From: Nitrospirota bacterium
GTDB lineage: Bacteria; Nitrospirota; Nitrospiria; Nitrospirales; Nitrospiraceae
Assembly (NCBI GenBank): GCA_030682135.1
Contig: JAUXQT010000100.1
Coordinates: 87,366-151,365, forward strand
Reading direction: 5' to 3'
DNA: 64,000 nucleotides
Below the pieces are notes generated by a model. It was not told the origin of the DNA, made no database searches, and saw only the letters and a program-made list of their open reading frames with translations. A program made the translations under genes and the position numbers. Every line of letters begins with the position of its first letter. Position 1 is the stretch's first letter. Shown here one piece after another: positions 2,653 through 18,649 of this stretch.

Positions 2653-3138
2653 CTATTCTTCTGCCTGCACCCCAGCATGATAGGTGCCATACACATACAC
2701 GGGGATCGACAAGTGGCCGAGATGTTTTTCCATCAACGGTTTCACATCTTTCCAGTCGAGCCCGCCCACCCCGGTGGCCAAGCGTGGAAGCGCAACGCTC
2801 TTGAACTTCTCCGTTTCGATCGCCTTACATAACGCTTTGAGACAGTGATTCACGTTCTCGATCGTGGCCCGTCCCGGGTGCTTGGCTCCGTGACTGGCAG
2901 CCGCCTCCTGAGTAAACAGATTCACAATCCGAATGCCCCCGACCCCGGCCCAGGCCCACAATTCGCCGGCCTTGGGGCTGAACGTCTGAGAATAATGCCG
3001 GAAGTCCTTATACATCGCCGGCCACTGTTCTCTGAGCGCCAAAGCTAACCCGTTGGCGAAATTATCGTTGGGAGCAACGCCATGTGCCAACGCTTCCGCC
3101 TTCGTCAACAAAATATCCCCTGCCACTTCCTTCAACAT
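2653..3138 (-). CDS. Macro domain (ADP-ribose-binding) protein
   Basis: GDILLTKAEALAHGVAPNDNFANGLA... VALPRLATGVGGLDW. Confidence 0.8.
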   Translation of the reverse strand: MLKEVAGDILLTKAEALAHGVAPNDNFANGLALALREQWPAMYKDFRHYSQTFSPKAGELWAWAGVGGIRIVNLFTQEAAASHGAKHPGRATIENVNHCLKALCKAIETEKFKSVALPRLATGVGGLDWKDVKPLMEKHLGHLSIPVYVYGTYHAGVQAEE

Positions 3139-3417
3139 GTCGCGTCCTCCTCCGTCGAGTTAGTAATGAAGCTTTGAATCTTATCACAGAGAGAGAGATG
3201 AGTCTCCCCCGCACCCCGCGAATCGGCCTCCTGACGATCTTCCTCTTTTCCAGGTGATTAAAGGGGCAGGAGTCTGTCCGAGTAATGCCATTCTGCTGCG
3301 GCCAACGATCTGCACGCGTCTGCGTCGTTCTCGACCCGCGCTCAAGAACCGTGACCGTGAAACGAGGGTCAGCCTCGGAGCTGCGGCCGCGCAACGAATG
3401 ACGACTCGGACAAACTC

Positions 3418-3873
3418 CTAGGATCGAAATGGTTGGACATCACCTGACTTACGCAACATCTTGTTCACTTCGTCGAGATGCAGCTCTTCGCCGACAATCA
3501 TCTCTCGTGCATATTCTTCCAACAACACGGACTTTCCCTCGGAGACTTTCAGGAGTTCGTAATAGGCGCAGATGGCGGCCTTCTCGTGCTCCAAACTTTC
3601 CCGCAGAATATCTCCCACATCATGCTTCTCGGTTTCCAAGAGTGTCCCGATTTTCAACGATGGGTGGCCGCCGAGCAACGTAACCAGTTCCCCGGCTTTA
3701 TGCGCGTGGGCAAGACTCTCGTCAGCATTACTCTTCAGCCAAGACACGATAGGAATACGGTTATACCCATAGATCATGAGGGAGTAATGCATATAGCGTA
3801 CGACCCCCGCCAACTCATGCTCCATAATTTTATTGAGAATCCCAACCGCACTTTGAGTATCTTGATCGTTCAT
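3418..3873 (-). CDS. Bacterioferritin/ferritin-like protein
   Basis: LNKIMEHELAGVVRYMHYSLM ... ESLAHAHKAGEL ... EEYAREMIVGEELHLDEV. Confidence 0.85.
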   Translation of the reverse strand: MNDQDTQSAVGILNKIMEHELAGVVRYMHYSLMIYGYNRIPIVSWLKSNADESLAHAHKAGELVTLLGGHPSLKIGTLLETEKHDVGDILRESLEHEKAAICAYYELLKVSEGKSVLLEEYAREMIVGEELHLDEVNKMLRKSGDVQPFRS

Positions 3874-4155
3874 CTGATGTCTCCTGTTATACGAAGCTAT
3901 TCCGCCGGAAGAAGTTGCGAATGGCATAACACCTGGCACGTCTGCTGCGGTCGGCCTTGCAGCCGGCACACCACCATCAGTCGTTCAACTGGAAACAAGT
4001 CTACTAGAAAGCCCGATGCGTATCCATCTCGTTCAATCCCTTGAGTAACCCTTGTCATTTCTACAACTCTCCCCTATAAAATGGGCAGCCCGCAAGCTGA
4101 TGAATCATCCAGCTTCCGTGACAAACCGTTTCGCCGTTGCACAGGAGAGCCCTCT

Positions 4156-4452
4156 ATGAAAATGTTGATGATCGTCTTTCGCCGATCGATTGTGGAACGC
4201 ATCCATGCCCTGCTGAAGGAGTATGACGTCAACGCGTTTACTGAACTGCATAATGTCGCCGGCAGGGGAGAAACCGGCCCCAATGTTGAATTCTTCCTCT
4301 CACCGGGCCCCAACAGTATGATCCTCACTGCGGTATCGGAACAGCTTGCCTACCGCCTCATCGAGGGGTTCACACGCTTCAAAGCGGAGCAGGGGACGGA
4401 TCAGCCTAACCATGTTCACGTATTTATCCTTCCCTGCGAGCAAGCGGTCTAG
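4156..4452 (+). CDS. Small P-II-like/DUF3240-like protein
   Basis: MKMLMIVFRRSIVERIHALLKEYDVNAFTELHNVAGRGETGP; P-II-like alpha/beta pattern. Confidence 0.55.
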   Translation: MKMLMIVFRRSIVERIHALLKEYDVNAFTELHNVAGRGETGPNVEFFLSPGPNSMILTAVSEQLAYRLIEGFTRFKAEQGTDQPNHVHVFILPCEQAV

Positions 4453-4574
4453 CAGGATGCTGAAAAAGTCCCCCAGCGGCGTTCTCGCGTCGCTCAGAGA
4501 CTCAACGTACTGAAGCGTACGCCTCGCCTCTTCGCTCGCTGCGGCCTTGCTAGACGGCCTTTTTGAGCATCCTG
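4452..4574. repeat. Family F2 repeat, ~123 bp with terminal inverted repeats
   Basis: GCAGGATGCTGAAAAAG...GGCCTTTTTGAGCATCCTG; same element at 18667, 20069, 29437, 40604, 55581. Confidence 0.85.
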
Positions 4575-4727
4575 AGGTTATTCTGCCCCCCGCACCATAC
4601 GGAAGATTTCAACCATGTTTGCCGTATCAACCGAGTTTTTCCGCAGCCTGCCAGCCCAGCACACAACAAGGCGAACGAGACAACCTCATGCGTGAAAGAG
4701 GTGGGGATGGATTGGGCTGGATTAGTT

Positions 4728-4885
4728 CGGTCGATAGCTCATCAAGGGCCAGATCTGTCGAATCCCTGCCGCCTGCTGGTCGGACGTCACCCGCTCTCGG
4801 AGAATCCCGTTCACATCACGCTCGACGAAGAAGCCTCCACATCCGAACGCCCAAGGCGAGACGACATCTCTTCGCGGCTCTGCTC
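4728..4885 (-). repeat. Family F4 repeat copy 1, conserved minus-strand reading frame
   Basis: Minus-strand translation ...GCGGFFVERDVNGILRERVTSDQQAAGIRQIWPLMSYRPN* aligns with the copy at ~8328. Confidence 0.6.
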
Positions 4886-4957
4886 TCAAGGCCGTACACG
4901 GACAGGTTCTGCGCTGTTGGAGTGAAAGACCCGCCCCTACCTGAGTTCTACATCACT

Positions 4958-5317
4958 TCACTTGGCGAGGGTCCGCACATAGGCCAGCACGTCTCTGCTC
5001 TGTTTCTCCGAGAGGAGGACCTTCCAGGCCGGCATGTTCGGTTTGCCGTCATGGATGGTCTTGAGCAAGTCGGCATCGGATTTCTTTCTGGTCGACGGTG
5101 CTGTGAGGTTAGCCGGATCCGGCCCAAGAATCCTGTATCCATCCCCTTTGCCCTGAGGCCCGTGACAACCGGCACAGTTTCTGACAAACAGTGTCTTGCC
5201 ACGCGCCACGTCGCCGCTCTGAGCCTTTGGCTCCGCTTGTCCTTGCGCCACCATCCCGAATAGAAGACCGCTCACGCACCCGACCGTTGCCGCCCCGAGC
5301 ATCCAACTTCTCTTCAT
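4958..5317 (-). CDS. Secreted c-type cytochrome
   Basis: Signal peptide plus CAGCHGPQGKGDGYRILGPDPANLT and NMPAWKVLLSEKQSRDVLAYVRTLA. Confidence 0.9.
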   Translation of the reverse strand: MKRSWMLGAATVGCVSGLLFGMVAQGQAEPKAQSGDVARGKTLFVRNCAGCHGPQGKGDGYRILGPDPANLTAPSTRKKSDADLLKTIHDGKPNMPAWKVLLSEKQSRDVLAYVRTLAK

Positions 5318-5631
5318 AACATTCCCTCCTGTTCGCGACTGCGTTACCGACTGAATGCAATCTGAGCCCTGCCTCGAATGTAGTGGCAGTGTCGAGCGGG
5401 TCTGCTGTGCGACAGCAGCAGGCGCTCGTTCACCGACTCAGTCCGTTGCAGACCAGCCGGACAGACACCAGAAACTCCGATCGCCTGAACCCGGGCCTTC
5501 CCTGACTTTCCTACAGAACAGTACCCCATCGGAAGGTGAGGCTCAACATCTGTGGAGAGGAGTCGGAGCCAAAAGAACAGAAACCGCGACGTGCAAAGTC
5601 GCAATGGCCCGCTACACCACTCCGCGCAGAA

Positions 5632-6228
5632 TCAGGGGCCAAGGGGCGCATTCGACGGATCGATATCTTCTAGTCGTCCCGTGCAGAAACGACGAACCGG
5701 ATCGTCGAGTGAATCCGGGTCGCCATCGTCCCACAAGACCGACCGGACGTTCCAGCGGACAATGGGATAGAACACCAACATCATCGGTGAAGCTGCCAAC
5801 GTGCCCAGCGTGGAGTACAGCATCTCGTCTTCGTCGAGACGCGTCTGCACACGACGGGACACCCTGCGGTACCAGTCAACCGATTGACGATACCCAGCCC
5901 GCCGATCGATGAGCCTCTGGTAGAGATCATCCTCCATCCTGCGGGGATTGGTTTCGGCAACGGTCCCGGCTTCAACCGGGCTTGTAGGGATAGACAGATC
6001 CGTAGTGCCGCCATTGTCGGCAAGGTAGGACAGCGGAGGAGATCGCCTTGCAGTCGAGGAGCGGGCCTTCCAGGCAACTCGCCAATCGGCTTCGAGCGAG
6101 TCGAGTTCTTCCTGAGACTGCCACACCTCCAACATGAGGCTTCCAAGGCAGTGCACCTCGCGCGTGCGTGTAGAAGAAGCGCAACCCACGGCGAGACTCG
6201 CCAGGATGATGAGGAGGAACGTTCGCAT
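5632..6228 (-). CDS. Hypothetical lipoprotein
   Basis: MRTFLLIILASLAVGC lipobox; plausible composition; no family recognised. Confidence 0.55.
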   Translation of the reverse strand: MRTFLLIILASLAVGCASSTRTREVHCLGSLMLEVWQSQEELDSLEADWRVAWKARSSTARRSPPLSYLADNGGTTDLSIPTSPVEAGTVAETNPRRMEDDLYQRLIDRRAGYRQSVDWYRRVSRRVQTRLDEDEMLYSTLGTLAASPMMLVFYPIVRWNVRSVLWDDGDPDSLDDPVRRFCTGRLEDIDPSNAPLGP

Positions 6229-6454
6229 GCACCCCTCTTACGAACACGATGTCGTGCCTCACTCTACGCTCGACAACGGCAAGCCGCAAACCAGGGAGGG
6301 CGAAGATGCCCTCATGGACATATCCCATATATCGGACATGACCGAAACAGGTTGAGATAACTCAAGAATGTGCCTTGCACACTGGTCAAGCGCCATCCAC
6401 GATCTATGTCGAGAGAGCCTTGTTCGACAGAAGAACTTTGACTAGAGTAGGGCT

Positions 6455-6604
6455 ATGAGCGATGTGGAGTGGCTGGCAGTCATCATGTCAGGCAGCCTGC
6501 TGATTGCGCTCGGCTGGCAGTGGTACCGGCGACGCCGCGCGGCCAAGTCGGCGGATGAGTTGCTGGCCGACGTGCTCAAGAGTAAGGATGCGTTCCACCG
6601 GTAA
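6455..6604 (+). CDS. Small single-TM protein (49 aa)
   Basis: ATG...TAA reads MSDVEWLAVIMSGSLLIALGWQWYRRRRAAKSADELLADVLKSKDAFHR. Confidence 0.5.
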   Translation: MSDVEWLAVIMSGSLLIALGWQWYRRRRAAKSADELLADVLKSKDAFHR

Positions 6605-6743
6605 TCGCTCACGTCTGCGAACATCTCAACCCCCTCGCGCGATCATCACCCTATTCCCGTTCATGTATTATAATAAAGTGTCTCTGCCCTCGGTTCTACG
6701 CATCTGACAGAGCCGCAATATACATCCGGAGAGGAGGAACACC

Positions 6744-8249
6744 ATGAGCACAGCAACGGTGGAAATCCCGACTCACCAAACGGTTACAACCTTTCTAGAC
6801 GCGCCCAGGAAAGTGCTGATCGGCGGCAGATGGCTCGAAGCCGCGTCGGGGAAGACCTTCCCGACCTACAACCCGGCCACGGGCGAAGTCCTGGCCCAAG
6901 TGGCCGAAGGCAACAGCACCGACGTTGACAGGGCGGTCACCGCTGCACGGAACGCCTTCGAGAGCGGCCCGTGGCGCACGTTCACAGCCTCGGAGCGTGG
7001 ACGGCTGATCTGGAAGCTCGCCGACCTTGTCGAATCTCACCTGGAAGAATTCGCCCAACTGGAGTCGCTCGACAACGGGAAGCCGGTCGGCGTGGCCCGC
7101 GTGGCGGATGTGCCGCTGGCCGTGGACCTCTTCCGGTACATGGCAGGTTGGTCGACCAAAATCGAAGGCCACACCATCCCCATTTCGGTGCCCTACATGC
7201 CCGGCGCCCGGTATCTCGCCTACACGCTGCGCGAGCCGGTCGGCGTGGTAGCCCAAATCATCCCTTGGAATTTTCCGCTACTCATGGCGGCTTGGAAGCT
7301 GGGTCCGGCGTTGGCCGCGGGCTGCACCGTCGTCCTGAAGCCTGCCGAGCAGACGCCGCTGTCCGCCCTGCGACTCGGCGAGCTGATCTGCGAAGCAGGA
7401 TTCCCGGACGGAGTGGTCAACATCGTGCCCGGGTACGGGGAGACCGCCGGCGCGGCACTGGCGGCGCATCCGGACGTGGACAAGGTGGCCTTCACTGGCT
7501 CCACCGAAGTGGGAAAGCTCATCCTTCGGGCGGCGGCAGGGAATCTCAAGAAAGTGTCGCTGGAGCTCGGCGGGAAATCCCCCAACATCGTATGCAAGGA
7601 CGCCGATCTGGAGGCGAGCATACCCGGAGTCGCGAGTGCGATCTTTTTCAACCAAGGCCAGTGCTGCTGCGCAGGCTCCAGGCTTTTCGTCGAAAAGGGT
7701 ATCTTCGACAAGGTGGTGGCGGGCGTGGCTGAGGAGGCGAAGAAGATCAAGGTCGGGCCGGGCATGGATCCCGCCACCCAAATGGGGCCGCTGGTGTCGG
7801 ACGAGCAGCAACGGCGGGTGCTCGGCTATCTGGAGTCGGGCTTCTCCGAGGGCGCCAAGGCAGTGGTCGGCGGACGCAAGCTGGGCGACAAGGGCTACTT
7901 TGTGGAACCGACCGTGCTGGTCAACACCACGCAGACGATGAAGATTATGCAGGAGGAAATCTTCGGGCCGGTTGTCTGCGCAGTCCCGTTTACGGACGTG
8001 GGCAAAGTGATCCAGGCGGCGAACGACTCCATCTACGGTCTGGCGGCGGCAGTATGGACCCGTGATGTCGGCAACGCTCATCGCATCGCAGCCGAGCTGC
8101 GCGCAGGGTCGGTGTGGGTCAACTGCTACAACATCTTCGACGCCGCGCTACCCTTCGGCGGCTACAAGCAATCCGGGTGGGGCCGCGAAATGGGCCACGA
8201 CGCACTGGAACTCTACACCGAGGTGAAAGCCGTCACAGTGCAGCTGTGA
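6744..8249 (+). CDS. NAD(P)-dependent aldehyde dehydrogenase
   Basis: [13 protein letters not shown]-like [41 protein letters not shown] gaggagg upstream. Confidence 0.97.
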
Positions 8250-8327
8250 AAGATCCCTGGAGAACGGAAGGATCGTCGGAAAGAGTACAAGCTATTACGC
8301 GCGGATGGAGCGAGGACGGATCTGACT

Positions 8328-8485
8328 AGATTCGGTCGGGTGATAGCTCGTCGAGGGCCAAGCCTGTCGAATCTCTGTCGCCCGCTGGCCGGCCGTCACG
8401 CGCTCCCGGAGAATCCCCTTCACCTCACGCTCGGCGGAGAAGCCTCCACATCCGAGACGCCCAAGGCGAGATGCAATCGCTTCAT
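8328..8485 (-). repeat. Family F4 repeat copy 2, conserved minus-strand reading frame
   Basis: Minus ORF LGRLGCGGFSAEREVKGILRERVTAGQRATEIRQAWPSTSYHP aligns with copy 1 at both DNA and protein level. Confidence 0.6.
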
Positions 8486-8688
8486 GGATCACCTCTCAAA
8501 GCCGCGCGCGGACGCGGCAATCAGAAAAGGTGAATATCCCCGTTTTCCGGTCCACAATCCAGCCGAAGACGGCTGTCCACAAAACCTACGATAATCCCAC
8601 CCCTCAAACCCCCGAAAATTCAGCATGCCATATCTAGCCATCCTATGTACTTAAATCAGATGATTCGCGGACAATGCAGCTTGTCAAT

Positions 8689-8729
8689 TAACACGGATAT
8701 GTGTTACACGATTGACACGTATTAGTGTT
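8689..8729 (+). promoter_or_regulatory. Two tandem inverted repeats upstream of the XRE fusion gene (putative operators)
   Basis: TAACAC-ggatat-GTGTTA (8689-8706) and ACAC-gtatta-GTGT within GACAC..GTGTT (8714-8729); TTGACA at 8712-8717. Confidence 0.55.
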
Positions 8730-8749: not shown

Positions 8750-11700
8750 GTGACAGCGAGAAAAGGGAGCCGGACGAAAAAAACAGTCCCTGATAAATCT
8801 GTAAAGCAGAAAAAGGTGCGAGAGCCTAATCGGATACGAGTGGTCCGCGAAGAGCTTGGCCTGAGCCAACAAGCGCTAGCAACAAAGATTGGAACCAGCC
8901 AACAACAAGTTCAAAGAATCGAAGCCGGAAGGCAATCGGTTCGTCACGACCTCGCCCTCAAAATTTGTGCGGCCCTCGGTACCCCTATCGGAAATGTGTT
9001 TCCGAGGATAGGTAAAGCCGTTCAGACCATCCATTCAAACAAAGGCACCGCCTCTACTGCCAAAGTCCCTGCCCTAAGGACGATGAGGGCCGTTTTAGCC
9101 GATGCGACAGATCTGCATGATTGGGCAAAAAGAATAGATGCACCTGCTCTGCTCCCGCTACTGATCAGAAGGCTAATACTGTTTTCCCTTCAGACTGTTG
9201 AAGAGATTCATTTTAGATCTGAGGAAGGAGTAAGGCTTCCTGGTTGGGACGGAGTTCTTCGCGTATCCCAAGGCAATGCATTTATTCCGCCGGGTACATC
9301 CGGGTGGGAAATGGGCACTACCGAACAGATAAAAGGGAAGGCGGATGAAGACTATGACAAACGGGTGAAAGACCCGCTTGGCTTGCAGCCAGCCAATAGC
9401 ACTTTTGTCTTCGTCACACCTAGGCGCTGGAAGAATAAAGAAGAGTGGGCTCAAGCCAAGCGAAATGAAGGCGTGTGGAAAGATGTTCGAGTCATCGATG
9501 CCGATGATTTGTCGGCATGGCTCGAAATCAGCCCCTCGGTACATATCTGGTTCTCCATTCTAATAGGCAAGCGGCCTAGCGGCGTGAACGACTTACAGAA
9601 CTTCTGGCAAACGTGGTCCGGCGCAACACAACCTGCGTTATTACCGAAGCTGCTACTCTCTGGGAGGTCGGCCTCCGTTGCGCAAGTGCAAGAGTTTCTT
9701 CGCGCACGCCCATCGGTCTTGGAAATAAAAGCGGATACGAGGGAAGAAGCGCTGGCCTTTCTTACGGCGTCCATTCTGAGCCTGAAAAACGATGACGAGC
9801 GGGAAAGAACCTTGGCGCGTGTGGTCATCGTCGAAGATCACGCAGCTTGGAGGCAGTTGGCTGGATGGAATAGATCTTTAGTACTTGTTCCTTCTTTTGA
9901 CGATCGTAGAACCGTTCCCGAAGCCCTCACGAGCGGCCATTCCATAGTAATTCCTCTCGGAGGAGGTGACCAGCCGTCACAAGGTGCAATTGTGCTTCCT
10001 CGATTGAATCGGGATGAAGCCAAGAAGGCTCTTGAAGGAATGCACATTCCCGCTGATCGAGTTGCAGAACTCGCCGCGCTAGCACGGCGAAGCATGGGAG
10101 CACTCCGACGCACAATTGCTATTAGTGTATCAACGCTGACGCCAGCTTGGGCGAATGCGGAAAATGCTAGATCCCTACTTCCAGCACTACTGACAGGACA
10201 GTGGAACGACCGCAACCCGAGTGATCAAAAAGCGGTTTCAGATATCGCCGGGAAAGAGTATGCAGATATTGCAACAGCACTTCTGCGCTGGGCTAACGAG
10301 CATGATCCCCCAGTCCGACGTGTGGGAGACACATGGATGTTCGTATCTAAAGAAGACGGCTGGTTACTACTCTCGAGATACCTATCAACACAGGATCTTG
10401 AGAGATTTGAAACGGTAGCCCTTGAGGTGCTTAGCGAGCGCGACCCTGAGTATGAATTGCCTGTTAATGAACGCTGGGAAGCCAATCTGAGGGGCAAGAT
10501 ACTAAAGCGGTCGAAAGAGATACGCAAAGGAGTCGCGGAGACGCTCGCTATTATGGGTTCCTTGAGCGAAGTTCATCCAATCAGCGGCGTCCTTAGCGGG
10601 CAAGAGTGGGCTACTCGTATTATCACCAAGCTTCTTTCTCAACCCGAGGACTGGACGTTTTGGGCATCGATCTCTCCCGTGCTTGAATTCATTGCGGAAG
10701 CCGCACCGGAGGCCTTTCTGTCAGCTGTTGAACGCGCTGTCTCTGATCCCAACAAACAATTAGTAAGGATATTCTCCGATGGTGAAGCGACCTGGCTCCA
10801 AGGGTCCCCTCATACAGGACTGCTGTGGTCGTTGGAAGTTCTAGCCTGGTCCCCTGAGTTTCTTGCTCAAACGGCTCTGATCCTCGCCAGGCTCGCAGGC
10901 CTTGATCCAGGTGTGAGAATGGAAAATAGGCCGATCAACAGTCTTCGAGAAATATTTCTTTGCTGGTCCCCCGGTACAGCTGCCAACCTGGATAAACGCC
11001 TTCGCGTCATAGATATGATACGCAAGCGCGAACCGAACGTGGCATGGAACCTTCTCTGTAGCCTTCTGCCAAGAATCATGGATAGCTCAAATCCAACAGC
11101 GAAACCAAGCTGGCGAGATTGGAAACCGGAAGAGACTTCCTCTGTCACATACGCTGAAGTGTTTAGAGCGACACAGGAAATTGTTGAAAGGCAGCTTGAG
11201 GATATCGGCACGTCGGGCTCCCGCTGGAAAGCCATCATCGAGCATCTTCATGAAGTGGGTCCTGAATTCGACAAGATTGTTAGTCGTCTAGAATCCCTTG
11301 ATTCTCAAGCTCTCACAGAAGTCGATAAAGTTGCTATTTGGGACAGTTTGCGGAAATTCGTATCACAGCATCGCCGATTTCATGATGCACAATGGGCGTT
11401 GCCCTCCGAGTTGGTTGATCGCCTTGATGAGCTACAAGGGCGGTTTGAACCCAACGATCCTATCATTAAGCAGGCTTGGCTCTTCTCAGACGATCCCGAC
11501 CTGCCCTACAAGCGCTCTGACGACGAATACGAGGAGGCCATTGAAGAGGCTCAAACAAAGAGCATTGAGGACCTCCATACCCTGGGCGGATTACCACTTA
11601 TCTTCAAGCTAGCTGAACAAGTGCAATGCCCTTGGAAAATTGGAACAGCACTTGGCACTACCAAGCTGTATGACGGTTTAGAAGGAGAACTCCTAACTCA

Positions 11701-12865
11701 GTGTTTTGGTTCCTCAGATAGGTCGCTTCGGCAACTCGGCATGTACTTTCTGATCAAGAGACGCTCTACTAAAGGCCTGGAATGGGCGGTCAGCCTGCAA
11801 GTGCAGAAAGAATGGAACGGCTGGACACCTAAGCAAAAATCCGATTACTTCCAATGTTTGCCGTTCACCGATGGAGCCACTTGGGACACGCTAGCTCTCC
11901 AAGATGAACAGACGCAACGACTATATTGGTCGCAAGTCGGCCCATATGGGCATGGGAAACTTGAAGGAGAGTTCCGCGAGAAGGTTGTAGAGAAATTTGT
12001 TAAGTACGATCAACTGGAGACAGCCATCGAGTTCTTGGATCTATATGCCCATCGCAAAGAATGTCCTGTACAGCCCAACCTAATAGCGGCAGTACTGTCT
12101 AAAGCTGCTCGCGGGTCTACCAAAGAGATTGATTGGAAACGGCATGGTCATCGTGTAGCAGAATTGTTGGAGCAACTTGCCAGATCTGGTCAAATCCAGA
12201 ATACGGAACTGGCCCAGCTTGAATGGTACTTCTTGCCGTTTCTGCGATTTGATCGGCGTCCAAGTACTTTGCTAAAAGCACTTGCCGACGACCCTGAGTT
12301 TTTTGTCGAGATGTTGAAGATTGTTTATCGAGCGGATAACCAAGAGCCTGAGGAGGTAACCGAGGAACAACGGACACGTGCGCATTATGCCCATGATTTG
12401 CTTTTAAGATGGCAACGCGGTCCGGGACTGAATGCAGATGGAAGCGTTTCTCCCGAGAAGCTGAACGCCTGGATTACGAAGGCGCTTGAATTGGCCTCTG
12501 CGCAGGGGCGCCTTAAAGCCGCTGAGCATCAGATCGGAAATGTATTGGCTCACTACCCTTCAGGTGCCGATGGTGCATGGCCGCACGATGCGATCCGAGA
12601 CCTCATTGAGGAACAAGCGAATGAAGAGATGCAAAATGGTATTACTCAGGGAATTTTGAATAGCAGAGGAGTTGTGAGCCGGTCTCTTGACGAAGGTGGA
12701 AGGCAAGAGAAAGCCATCGCTGAACGATATAAAGAGTACGCGAGAATTCTAAGCGACAAATGGCCAAGGACCTCCATGCTGATGAAAGAAATTTCCAGAT
12801 CTTATGAACTTCGAGCGCGCCGAGAAGACCTTGAAACAGAGATCAGACAAGATTTGTGGAACTAA
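8750..12865 (+). CDS. XRE-type HTH fused to large uncharacterised nuclease-like/helical-repeat protein; candidate defence or effector protein
   Basis: N-terminal HTH VREELGLSQQALATKIGTSQQQVQRIEAGRQS; 'LPGWDGVLRV..NAFIPPGTSGWEMGTT..KADEDYDKR...STFVFVTPRRW...VRVIDADDLSAWLE'; long helical C-terminus; GTG start. Confidence 0.85.
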   Translation: MTARKGSRTKKTVPDKSVKQKKVREPNRIRVVREELGLSQQALATKIGTSQQQVQRIEAGRQSVRHDLALKICAALGTPIGNVFPRIGKAVQTIHSNKGTASTAKVPALRTMRAVLADATDLHDWAKRIDAPALLPLLIRRLILFSLQTVEEIHFRSEEGVRLPGWDGVLRVSQGNAFIPPGTSGWEMGTTEQIKGKADEDYDKRVKDPLGLQPANSTFVFVTPRRWKNKEEWAQAKRNEGVWKDVRVIDADDLSAWLEISPSVHIWFSILIGKRPSGVNDLQNFWQTWSGATQPALLPKLLLSGRSASVAQVQEFLRARPSVLEIKADTREEALAFLTASILSLKNDDERERTLARVVIVEDHAAWRQLAGWNRSLVLVPSFDDRRTVPEALTSGHSIVIPLGGGDQPSQGAIVLPRLNRDEAKKALEGMHIPADRVAELAALARRSMGALRRTIAISVSTLTPAWANAENARSLLPALLTGQWNDRNPSDQKAVSDIAGKEYADIATALLRWANEHDPPVRRVGDTWMFVSKEDGWLLLSRYLSTQDLERFETVALEVLSERDPEYELPVNERWEANLRGKILKRSKEIRKGVAETLAIMGSLSEVHPISGVLSGQEWATRIITKLLSQPEDWTFWASISPVLEFIAEAAPEAFLSAVERAVSDPNKQLVRIFSDGEATWLQGSPHTGLLWSLEVLAWSPEFLAQTALILARLAGLDPGVRMENRPINSLREIFLCWSPGTAANLDKRLRVIDMIRKREPNVAWNLLCSLLPRIMDSSNPTAKPSWRDWKPEETSSVTYAEVFRATQEIVERQLEDIGTSGSRWKAIIEHLHEVGPEFDKIVSRLESLDSQALTEVDKVAIWDSLRKFVSQHRRFHDAQWALPSELVDRLDELQGRFEPNDPIIKQAWLFSDDPDLPYKRSDDEYEEAIEEAQTKSIEDLHTLGGLPLIFKLAEQVQCPWKIGTALGTTKLYDGLEGELLTQCFGSSDRSLRQLGMYFLIKRRSTKGLEWAVSLQVQKEWNGWTPKQKSDYFQCLPFTDGATWDTLALQDEQTQRLYWSQVGPYGHGKLEGEFREKVVEKFVKYDQLETAIEFLDLYAHRKECPVQPNLIAAVLSKAARGSTKEIDWKRHGHRVAELLEQLARSGQIQNTELAQLEWYFLPFLRFDRRPSTLLKALADDPEFFVEMLKIVYRADNQEPEEVTEEQRTRAHYAHDLLLRWQRGPGLNADGSVSPEKLNAWITKALELASAQGRLKAAEHQIGNVLAHYPSGADGAWPHDAIRDLIEEQANEEMQNGITQGILNSRGVVSRSLDEGGRQEKAIAERYKEYARILSDKWPRTSMLMKEISRSYELRARREDLETEIRQDLWN

Positions 12866-13165
12866 CAGGTCCTATCATCAGGTGAGAGGAACGGTCGTAT
12901 AGCAGAGCTATTCCCTGCTCATTCCGTCTCACTCAATCCCACTCCTTCTCAGGTCCCAAGTCGCTGACTTTCTTGCGAAAAGTCTTTGAAGCTCGCGTCA
13001 GTATTGGATGGGCTGAAATGGTCTCAAATCAAATCCCGCCTTCGGCACCACCTCTCCACTTGGAGACAAGAAGTGGAGACATTCTAAGTATTGGGAACAC
13101 TCCTTCTCGCCAAAGCGGGTTCCACTGCTATGATTGAGCAACCACAGCTCTTCCGTCTTCCCCTT

Positions 13166-13230
13166 GAGGGCGGGCTAGATGGTCTCCCACTGCGCGTGTC
13201 CAACGAAGTATGAATGATCCCTCCAAGCTC
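13166..13230. repeat. F1 half-element (left arm and core, then conserved spacer)
   Basis: gagggcgggctagatggtctcccactgcgcgtgtccaacga then aatgatccctccaagctcactg. Confidence 0.6.
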
Positions 13231-13245
13231 ACTGCTTCCCTATTT

Positions 13246-13342
13246 AAGGGGGCAGCCTGGTTGATCCTCGAATGCGCGCGTCGAACGAGGCCCTTCTGAG
13301 GGCGCGCGTTCCGCGAGCAGGAGGACGACCAGGCCACCCCTT
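13246..13342. repeat. Family F1 long palindrome
   Basis: AAGGGGGCAGCCTGGTTGATCCTC ... GAGGACGACCAGGCCACCCCTT arms around core TGCGCGCGTCGAACGAGGCCCTTCTGAGGGCGCGCGTTCCGCGAGCA. Confidence 0.85.
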
Positions 13343-13375
13343 TTCCCTTCCGGGCTCGCTCGTTGCACTCTCCTA

Positions 13376-13470
13376 GAGGGTGGCCTGACTGGTCTCCCAT
13401 TGCGCGTGTCCAACGAGGGTCTTCTGAGACCGCGCGTTGCACGAGCACAGGAGACCATCAGGCTACCCTC
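13376..13470. repeat. Family F1 long palindrome
   Basis: GAGGGTGGCCTGACTGGTCTCC ... GGAGACCATCAGGCTACCCTC; tip GGTCT-TCTG-AGACC. Confidence 0.85.
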
Positions 13471-13598
13471 CTCCCTCTTGACCCGGTCATCCCGCAAGCG
13501 CATCCTTTTAGCTGATCCTGCGCGGGATGCACTCTGCTCTGAACCATCGGCACTCGTAGGATCTCGCCGGGGCGTTCGGATCACGAGAGGGCTACATC

Positions 13599-16996: not shown

Positions 16997-18649
16997 CTAC
17001 TGTTTCGCCGGGGGGGCTTCCAATGCGAGATGCAGCACTTCCGACTCGGCCAGATCTTGGTCTCGCTTTGAATTGCCGGAGCGTAGGAGCTTGTCGCCGA
17101 GGCCGACGGCCAGGTTGCGATAGATGATGACCCCGATGTCGGGGCGGCGGCGAATGAGATCCGCCAGATCGCGCTGGAGCAGTTCCGCCGCCTCAACCGG
17201 CCCTTCGGCGGTGGCCGTGGCGGAATGGGGTCTGGCCGAGAGGAGCGAGACTTCGCCGCACGTTTCTCCGGTGCGGACGGTCCCGATCGTGACTGATGGA
17301 GACCCACCACTAATGGCGACTTGCCCCTGCAGCAGGATGTAGAGACGGTCGGCAGGATCGTGCGTGGCAAAGAGACGCTCGCCGGCCCGCACTTCCCGCA
17401 CCCGGCAGATTCCTGCGAGCCTGGTCGCCTGTTCCATGTTCATCCCGTGAAACAACGGGATCTCCTTGATCGCCTGCGCCATGCGCGGGGCAATCACGCA
17501 GGTGGAAAAGCCGCGCATCACCACGTCGGCGACAGCCTGCACCGGTTCCATCAGCGCGAGCGGCCCAAGATCTTGCAGCTTGTTCAGCCGCACCATCTTT
17601 ACGATGTCGAGCCGTTCCACTTGATAAAAGACCATGGCCGGCACATAGGCGACCGGAAGAAAGTTCAGCTCCAAAAGCGTGCGCTGCATTCGTGGCGCAT
17701 AGGCGCTGACGTCGATCTCAATGTATTCAATCCCCATCTCCTCCCGGCACTTCCGTTCCAGCTCGGAGAGCAGAAATCGCACGACGTCGTCGGCCAAGGC
17801 GATCAACTCGAACACACGGACGGTGTGCTCGACCGGATCCATCGTATAGCCGACAGCCCCGACGATGTGGCCGCCGGAGCGGGCCAGAAAGTAACTGGTT
17901 TGCCGCGCCTGGAGTTTGAAGAACCCATAATCCAGCCGCATGGGGCCGAAGATTTCACGATTGCGGACCCGCCCACGCTCGATGCGCAGCAGAGCCGGAT
18001 AACCTTCGGCCTGCAGCTGCTCGATGGTGTAGTCGCCCCCGGCTGGATACGGCGCGGAATCTTCGTCGACGATGAAATCCGGCGTGAGCGGCGGCTGGCT
18101 CATGACGAGATTGGCTAAGGCATAGGCCTCGGGAATGATCCGAGGATTGTTGCGGCGCAAGGCCAGCGCGTCGCCGAAATACCGGGCCAGCAGAGCGAAA
18201 CTCTCGCGGTGGCGGAAAAAATGTTTCAGTGGCAGAAAGCCGGTGGGGATGAACCCGTGCGCGAGACTGATCTGCTGGGCGTACGGGTGCACAGTCCGCG
18301 CGACGACCAGACCGACATGCAGGCGGTTGTGAATGGCTTCCAGCCGCTTCTCCATCAGCAGCTTGCCGACCTGTAAGCGGCGATAGTCCGGGTGGACGGC
18401 GAGGCGGCCGAATTCTCCGACGAGATCGGAATGGGCCCCGAAGTCGAAGAGGACGGAGGCCGTGCCGATCACCCGGCCTGCATCTGTATCTTCGGCAACG
18501 AGAATCAGCGCGTCGTCGGTGAAGACGGAGCGCTTGAGCCACAATTCGTCGTAGAGTTCGCGATGCGGATAGTCGGCCCCGTAGACCGCGAGAAAGATCT
18601 CACGGATCTGGACGACATCTTCTTCGCGGGCTTCTCTGATCCGAATCAT
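16997..18649 (-). CDS. GNAT acetyltransferase fused to cyclic-nucleotide-binding domain
   Basis: GEFGRLAVHPDYRRLQVGKLLME (GNAT); IPLFHGMNMEQATRLAG...ERLFATHDPADRLYILLQGQVAIS (cNMP domain). Confidence 0.85.
   Translation of the reverse strand: MIRIREAREEDVVQIREIFLAVYGADYPHRELYDELWLKRSVFTDDALILVAEDTDAGRVIGTASVLFDFGAHSDLVGEFGRLAVHPDYRRLQVGKLLMEKRLEAIHNRLHVGLVVARTVHPYAQQISLAHGFIPTGFLPLKHFFRHRESFALLARYFGDALALRRNNPRIIPEAYALANLVMSQPPLTPDFIVDEDSAPYPAGGDYTIEQLQAEGYPALLRIERGRVRNREIFGPMRLDYGFFKLQARQTSYFLARSGGHIVGAVGYTMDPVEHTVRVFELIALADDVVRFLLSELERKCREEMGIEYIEIDVSAYAPRMQRTLLELNFLPVAYVPAMVFYQVERLDIVKMVRLNKLQDLGPLALMEPVQAVADVVMRGFSTCVIAPRMAQAIKEIPLFHGMNMEQATRLAGICRVREVRAGERLFATHDPADRLYILLQGQVAISGGSPSVTIGTVRTGETCGEVSLLSARPHSATATAEGPVEAAELLQRDLADLIRRRPDIGVIIYRNLAVGLGDKLLRSGNSKRDQDLAESEVLHLALEAPPAKQ

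Follow-up and report, generated by a model that had tools for sequence, protein, structure and literature searches.

A candidate P-loop-less STAND-like immune receptor carrying a predicted repressor of its own gene in a Nitrospirota bacterium

Within the 64,000-nucleotide stretch of DNA analysed here (the window; contig JAUXQT010000100.1 of the Nitrospirota assembly GCA_030682135.1), an open reading frame (ORF) spans exactly positions 8750-12865 of the plus strand; it begins with GTG and encodes a protein of 1371 amino acids (aa). On balance, this protein is probably a single-gene immune receptor that represses itself; its STAND-like core, devoid of a P-loop, would relay sensing by a solenoid to a PD-(D/E)XK-like effector. 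As a variant of the Avs/PD-lambda-4 kind that lacks the P-loop and is predicted to repress itself, it probably acts against phages or plasmids. Computation yielded the layout of the domains, the lack of a P-loop, the conservation of nuclease-like residues, a unique pair of operator-like sites, a fixed operator among relatives and the defence-gene surroundings of those relatives. Cutting by the effector, the identity of what is sensed, genuine repression and a resulting resistance to phages are inferred.

In the proposed mechanism, the C-terminal solenoid would recognise a molecule of the invader, and the STAND-like core, its P-loop lost, would pass this recognition on without need of a nucleotide, or at least of a P-loop, as an assembly or hinge domain. 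The relay would set the PD-(D/E)XK-like effector at the N-terminus free to cut DNA. The fused XRE domain would meanwhile bind two palindromes that lie in the promoter region just 5' of the start, and would repress its own gene, thereby keeping the level of a dangerous protein low. A bolder version, tentative and on the whole doubtful, is that of a nucleotide-independent NLR-like receptor resting on its own operator, where binding of the invader would free the protein from the promoter, raising its own expression, and activate the nuclease, so that sensing, effector and transcriptional feedback would all lie within one polypeptide; repeated, independent fusions to XRE and MerR-type domains would then be convergent forms of built-in dosage control. 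The protein points to a large uncatalogued family that shares its core fold with the NLR receptors of animals and plants and poses the question of whether a STAND receptor can switch without a P-loop. The protein would also be a rare, directly testable immune receptor fused to its own repressor, for which candidate operator sequences are available.

AlphaFold2 models were built with 70 homologues as two overlapping segments, residues 1-700 and 560-1371, with predicted local distance difference test (pLDDT) scores of 90.9 and 92.3, respectively, and underlie the features collected in Table 1. The only domain recognised by Pfam is the N-terminal XRE helix-turn-helix (HTH), as the original prediction from the bare sequence had proposed. 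Foldseek comparison of the first model with the PDB returned Avs5, Avs4, Apaf-1 and NLRC4 as best matches, with CED-4 lower (E 5e-6 to 6e-2), and together with the model delimits a STAND-like core of nucleotide-binding, helical and winged-helix domains at approximately residues 320-545. The middle region had been described beforehand as paced like a STAND NTPase, and the structure check found the fold as predicted. The comparison is of multidomain chains, which keeps the accompanying TM-scores low (0.1-0.3); a fold class is therefore claimed rather than detailed similarity. The second model consists of helices only, save isolated bridge residues, and matches karyopherins and HEAT proteins, in agreement with the roughly 800 aa of mainly helical sequence noted earlier; it includes the family motif LLWxLExLAW at about residues 691-700. 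Sequence profiles of the nuclease and core segments found nothing meaningful in the PDB; the evidence for these folds rests on AlphaFold and Foldseek and on hhalign comparison with PD-lambda-4_A. In BFVD, the model of the N-terminal part retrieved HTH proteins for the most part.

Table 1. Features of the 1371-aa gene and its upstream region, in window coordinates
Feature	Residues	Position	Strand	Evidence
Gene for XRE HTH / nuclease-like / P-loop-less STAND / helical solenoid protein		8750..12865	+	ORF call, Pfam, AlphaFold2
Operator-like palindrome 1, AACAC-N6-GTGTT (core ACAC-N6-GTGT 8691-8704)		8690..8705		Sequence search
Operator-like palindrome 2, GACAC-N6-GTGTT (core 8715-8728)		8714..8729		Sequence search
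XRE/Cro-type HTH	29-80	8834..8989	+	Pfam HTH_3 (E 4e-12); Foldseek C.BclI, CylR2, HigA
PD-(D/E)XK-like domain	114-285	9089..9604	+	AlphaFold2 topology, residue invariance, hhalign to PD-lambda-4_A N-terminus
STAND-like nucleotide-binding fold without P-loop	~320-455	9707..10114	+	AlphaFold2, Foldseek, homologue alignment
Winged-helix-like segment (putative)	~466-545	10145..10384	+	AlphaFold2 secondary structure; assigned from the STAND layout
Alpha-solenoid (HEAT/ARM type)	546-1371	10385..12862	+	AlphaFold2, Foldseek, hhalign to PD-lambda-4_A solenoid

The protein contains no GxxxxGK[ST] motif, the observation from which a degenerate NTPase had been proposed. At the site where a P-loop is expected, the model joins strand 323-327 to helix 331-343 by a turn of three residues (328-330), the family carries the signature hxhxAxSxxEAxAF, and none of 78 homologues has a P-loop; the sole GxxxxGK[ST] among them, at residue 77 of L107, lies in the nuclease-like region, far from this position. 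Inactive STAND modules with eroded Walker motifs, namely iSTAND, iSTAND2 and BrxB, are known and have been proposed to serve as sensors or switches in defence (PMC7159879, PMC8195603, PMC12839542). Theirs, however, are multi-gene MoxR-vWA or BREX systems, whereas effector, core and sensor are here joined in one protein, and no MoxR AAA+ or vWA gene was detected among the ten window ORFs scanned (3.4-18.6 kb). The literature searched yielded no description of an effector, a P-loop-less core, a sensor and an HTH in one polypeptide.

The nuclease-like block follows the order alpha-beta-beta-beta-alpha-beta in the model (helix 131-146, strands 152-155, 168-172 and 182-188, helix 194-207, strand 217-222), and the element order of a PD-(D/E)XK-like domain is seen over residues 131-259. 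D167 stands just before one strand and E187 within the next, with K197 and R205 on the helix that follows. The WDG...WExG...K block had been singled out as conserved-looking, and D167, G168, E187, R205, W257 and R306 are in fact identical in 78 of 78 homologues, while K197 is kept in 75. By hhalign, the domain is also related to the N-terminus of L114, a homologue of PD-lambda-4_A (probability 94%, E 1.8e-7), which bears a D...QxK arrangement. The suggested PD-(D/E)XK-like nuclease thus stands as regards core topology and profile homology, and remains unproven as regards the catalytic motif, to which we return below.

Upstream of the gene, the two palindromes of Table 1 are spaced 24 bp apart just 5' of the start. 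No further ACAC-N6-GTGT match exists in the window, for a chance expectation of ~0.9 per 64 kb, and the 3.75-Mb genome holds no second tandem pair of this kind. The same motif occurs upstream of a 54%-identical homologue (L002; ACACTAATTCGTGT). A large clade of proteobacterial-type XRE members has a different palindrome, TCATA-N7-TATGA; 19 copies of it were counted in 485 kb, each at -18/-19 of the start codon. As a prediction, self-regulation of the 1371-aa gene through its operator-like sites is well supported by these patterns, and the built-in repressor that had been suggested gains weight accordingly. The C proteins of restriction-modification (RM) systems exert control through paired operator sites 5' of their own genes. 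The window protein resembles the XRE controllers C.BclI and C.AhdI in its HTH fold and paired upstream operator-like sites, but differs in that its controller domain is fused to an effector polypeptide. In six relatives (L046, L049, L057, L058, L064 and L044), a second palindrome, TCATATGA, lies about -110 from the start, on the side of a divergent AbiEi gene, a placement that suggests shared control of the two genes. Members with a MerR-type HTH (L093, L100, L102) share CACAAAGTCCACAATCTG just 5' of the start while their more distal upstream sequences differ; this element is probably a direct-repeat operator.

Because HTHs of two unrelated families, XRE and MerR-type, are present, at least two fusions are required. 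A FastTree phylogeny of the core, with the HTH excluded, gave seven HTH changes, four XRE (four also forced by the starred branches) and three MerR-type, although the tree carried compositional warnings and such counts cannot tell gains and losses apart. The window gene and L002 are nested among HTH-less members, apart from the proteobacterial XRE clade. The receptor family apparently gained an HTH more than once.

Among known proteins, the closest is PD-lambda-4_A, an Avs-like STAND nuclease (PADLOC PDLC03991) that forms part of a system described by Vassallo et al. 2022 (PMC9519451). The original prediction could assign no described system; this holds in that the protein, lacking a P-loop, is not an Avs in the strict sense, and it fails in that PD-lambda-4_A is a described relative by hhalign of both nuclease and solenoid. 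Common to the two are a nuclease-like block with DG...(Q/E)x(K/G), a YDxxxLxxWL segment, a STAND-like middle and a solenoid with an LxWALExLA motif, and the solenoids are homologous (hhalign to L114, probability 97%, E 1.3e-10). The PADLOC profile matches seven of 15 homologues. L114 differs, however, in its intact P-loop (GPSGFGKS), in GEDG...FQSKA (QxK) and in that no HTH was seen, and its middle has no sequence similarity to that of the 1371-aa protein by hhalign. No partner adjoins the window gene, although the second gene of PD-lambda-4 was not itself searched for. Avs4 and Avs5, the best Foldseek matches (E 5e-6), share the order of effector, STAND core and C-terminal repeat sensor; the window protein lacks their Walker A, has a fused repressor and a solenoid of HEAT/ARM type, and is 10% identical in sequence. 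By analogy it may well work like Avs, and the likeness to single-protein anti-phage STAND effectors, as first proposed, is supported at the level of a candidate by the folds and the PD-lambda-4_A homology.

L114 resides in a genome of the same genus (G017; stretch L136, G017:C29:128000-138500, gene 3020-6748), where it occupies the very interval that holds the window gene, flanked by homologues of the window aldehyde dehydrogenase (ALDH; 96%) and tetratricopeptide repeat (TPR) genes (92%). In a third congener (G031), a 1530-aa HEAT protein with an NCAB2 domain, the NACHT C-terminal type (L127:7738-12327, minus strand), lies ~6 kb downstream of the same ALDH; PADLOC gave it no match. With two full cases and one partial, the ALDH/TPR interval is probably an exchange site for NLR-like genes. 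Among 13 congeneric stretches, none showed ALDH and TPR genes as a contiguous site with nothing inserted.

The gene had been called an orphan, a description overturned by a single pattern scan of GTDB representatives with an alignment query, which returned 548 loci of relatives, of which 80 were kept. The alignment query alone succeeded, as a single-sequence scan of genome contigs found no relatives. Hosts include Pseudomonadota, Bacteroidota, Actinomycetota, Bacillota, Planctomycetota, Acidobacteriota and the archaeon Methanosaeta, such that the family is large, uncatalogued and present in many phyla of bacteria as well as in at least one genus of archaea; a search of the literature for six homologue accessions found no mention of them. 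Members with and without an HTH coexist, the latter being common. The family is accessory and mobile: it occurs in 12 of 296 genomes of its own phylum, a first survey of 31 congeners gave a long match in one other genome only, 11 IMG/VR contigs carry relatives, and 30 plasmid records match, 18 of them over at least 80% of the protein and 20 of them conjugative or mobilizable. Homologues are thus patchy and mobile rather than core genes in syntenic housekeeping positions, and a housekeeping role is rejected on this distribution. A chance ORF is likewise rejected on conservation along the full length of the protein, and a pseudogene on the open frame.

The solenoid (from about residue 463) is also joined to other N-termini (L094 and L104-L111). 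In an Armatimonadota member (L094:8945-12742) an HD-CE phosphohydrolase-like domain precedes the same solenoid, while a short GSGxN-type leader does so in L111 and Buttiauxella. The N-terminus of the prophage variants (L104, L108-L110) was unrecognised by Pfam and looks, by eye only, Cap4/DUF4297-type nuclease-like; this type occurs in eight of 5426 E. coli genomes, and the two E. coli loci inspected both lie beside prophage remnants, one with tRNA-Thr at its far end. An E. coli prophage homologue has the accession WP_000182525.1. A constant sensor with varied effectors would be typical of defence receptors.

Defence genes are also found in the company of the relatives. AbiE genes occur at 17 loci (AbiEii at 16, AbiEi at 17), mostly as the divergent, adjacent upstream neighbour and also on plasmids; among 128 upstream neighbours Pfam identified 12 AbiEii and 11 AbiEi. 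Other relatives adjoin genes for type I RM; for DUF2357, SLATT with reverse transcriptase, and Shedu; for Abi, SIR2 and RES-Xre; for Abi with superinfection exclusion; for a CBASS cyclase and phospholipase, pAgo and KwaA (Kiwa); and a series of HTH, ImmA/IrrE and PDDEXK nuclease genes.

Several points weigh against an active receptor of this kind. The second acidic motif is ExG and not the classical (D/E)xK, on account of which a nuclease identity remains unproven; either K197, on the helix that comes next, takes over this part, or the domain may be inactive. Loss of the P-loop is not neutral, because Avs5 requires its Walker A residues (PMC12931631). PADLOC itself found a single weak stretch of PD-Lambda-4_A similarity (residues 644-757, E 5e-4), no other recognised defence gene was found near the gene in the window, the AbiE linkage falls largely in one clade and may reflect few events, and the neighbour survey, made without a random-gene background, is a description and not a tested enrichment. 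The ExG motif would suit a receptor whose nuclease is dead and which, as a sensor rather than an effector, signals to a partner, for instance the divergent AbiE toxin-antitoxin, and both inactive REase and inactive STAND sensors have been described (PMC12839542, PMC8195603). Such a receptor is nonetheless unlikely, as AbiE is absent beside the window gene and at most loci, the AbiE genes next to 17 loci, mostly divergent, notwithstanding, and the conservation of D...WExG...KA..DY.KR resembles an active site rather than decay.

An HTH, a STAND-like core and a solenoid together make up the layout of STAND activators. With its XRE domain confirmed, the protein might accordingly be a transcription regulator of the MalT/AfsR type that controls target genes and whose WDG/WExG block is non-catalytic. 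This we consider quite improbable: the HTH is missing from many homologues while D167, E187 and R205 are invariant, L094 has HD-CE in place of the N-terminus, the operator-like sites lie at the gene's own start as a tandem pair unique in the genome, and the relatives occupy mobile, defence-rich contexts. Least credible is a one-polypeptide addiction module that maintains plasmids or islands rather than fighting phages, with an antitoxin-like HTH and a toxic nuclease. The many plasmid copies, the HigA/HipB-like HTH and the toxin-antitoxin neighbours would fit it, but HTH-less members are common, a separate labile antitoxin is normally needed, and addiction alone hardly accounts for a conserved solenoid of 800 aa. 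The self-repressed receptor is retained as the preferred reading.

In its local setting, the gene is a single ~4.1-kb unit less GC-rich than its neighbours, as first described, with a GC fraction of 0.49-0.53 (~50%) against 0.58-0.64 (~60%) in both flanks, which suggests horizontal acquisition. The ALDH gene (6744-8249) lies 5', and the TPR gene (13599) and an Ap4A phosphorylase gene lie 3', in metabolic or general surroundings; the window ORFs include no co-directional adjacent partner, in keeping with the lack of an obvious operon. Further downstream on the minus strand, a 550-aa protein (16997-18649) combines GNAT acetyltransferase and cyclic-nucleotide-binding domains, and its PADLOC matches to Pycsar stem from the latter part only. 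An interspersed repeat at 13100-13520 has 62 matches in its own genome, as fragments of ~30-240 bp at 72-96% identity; it also lies near the same genes in congeners and looks like a REP/MITE-type element family. Upstream, ~200 bp of the intergenic region 8300-8560 has a second copy of 81% identity at G000:C75:92070-92268 (window ~4705-4903) and is present in several congeners too.

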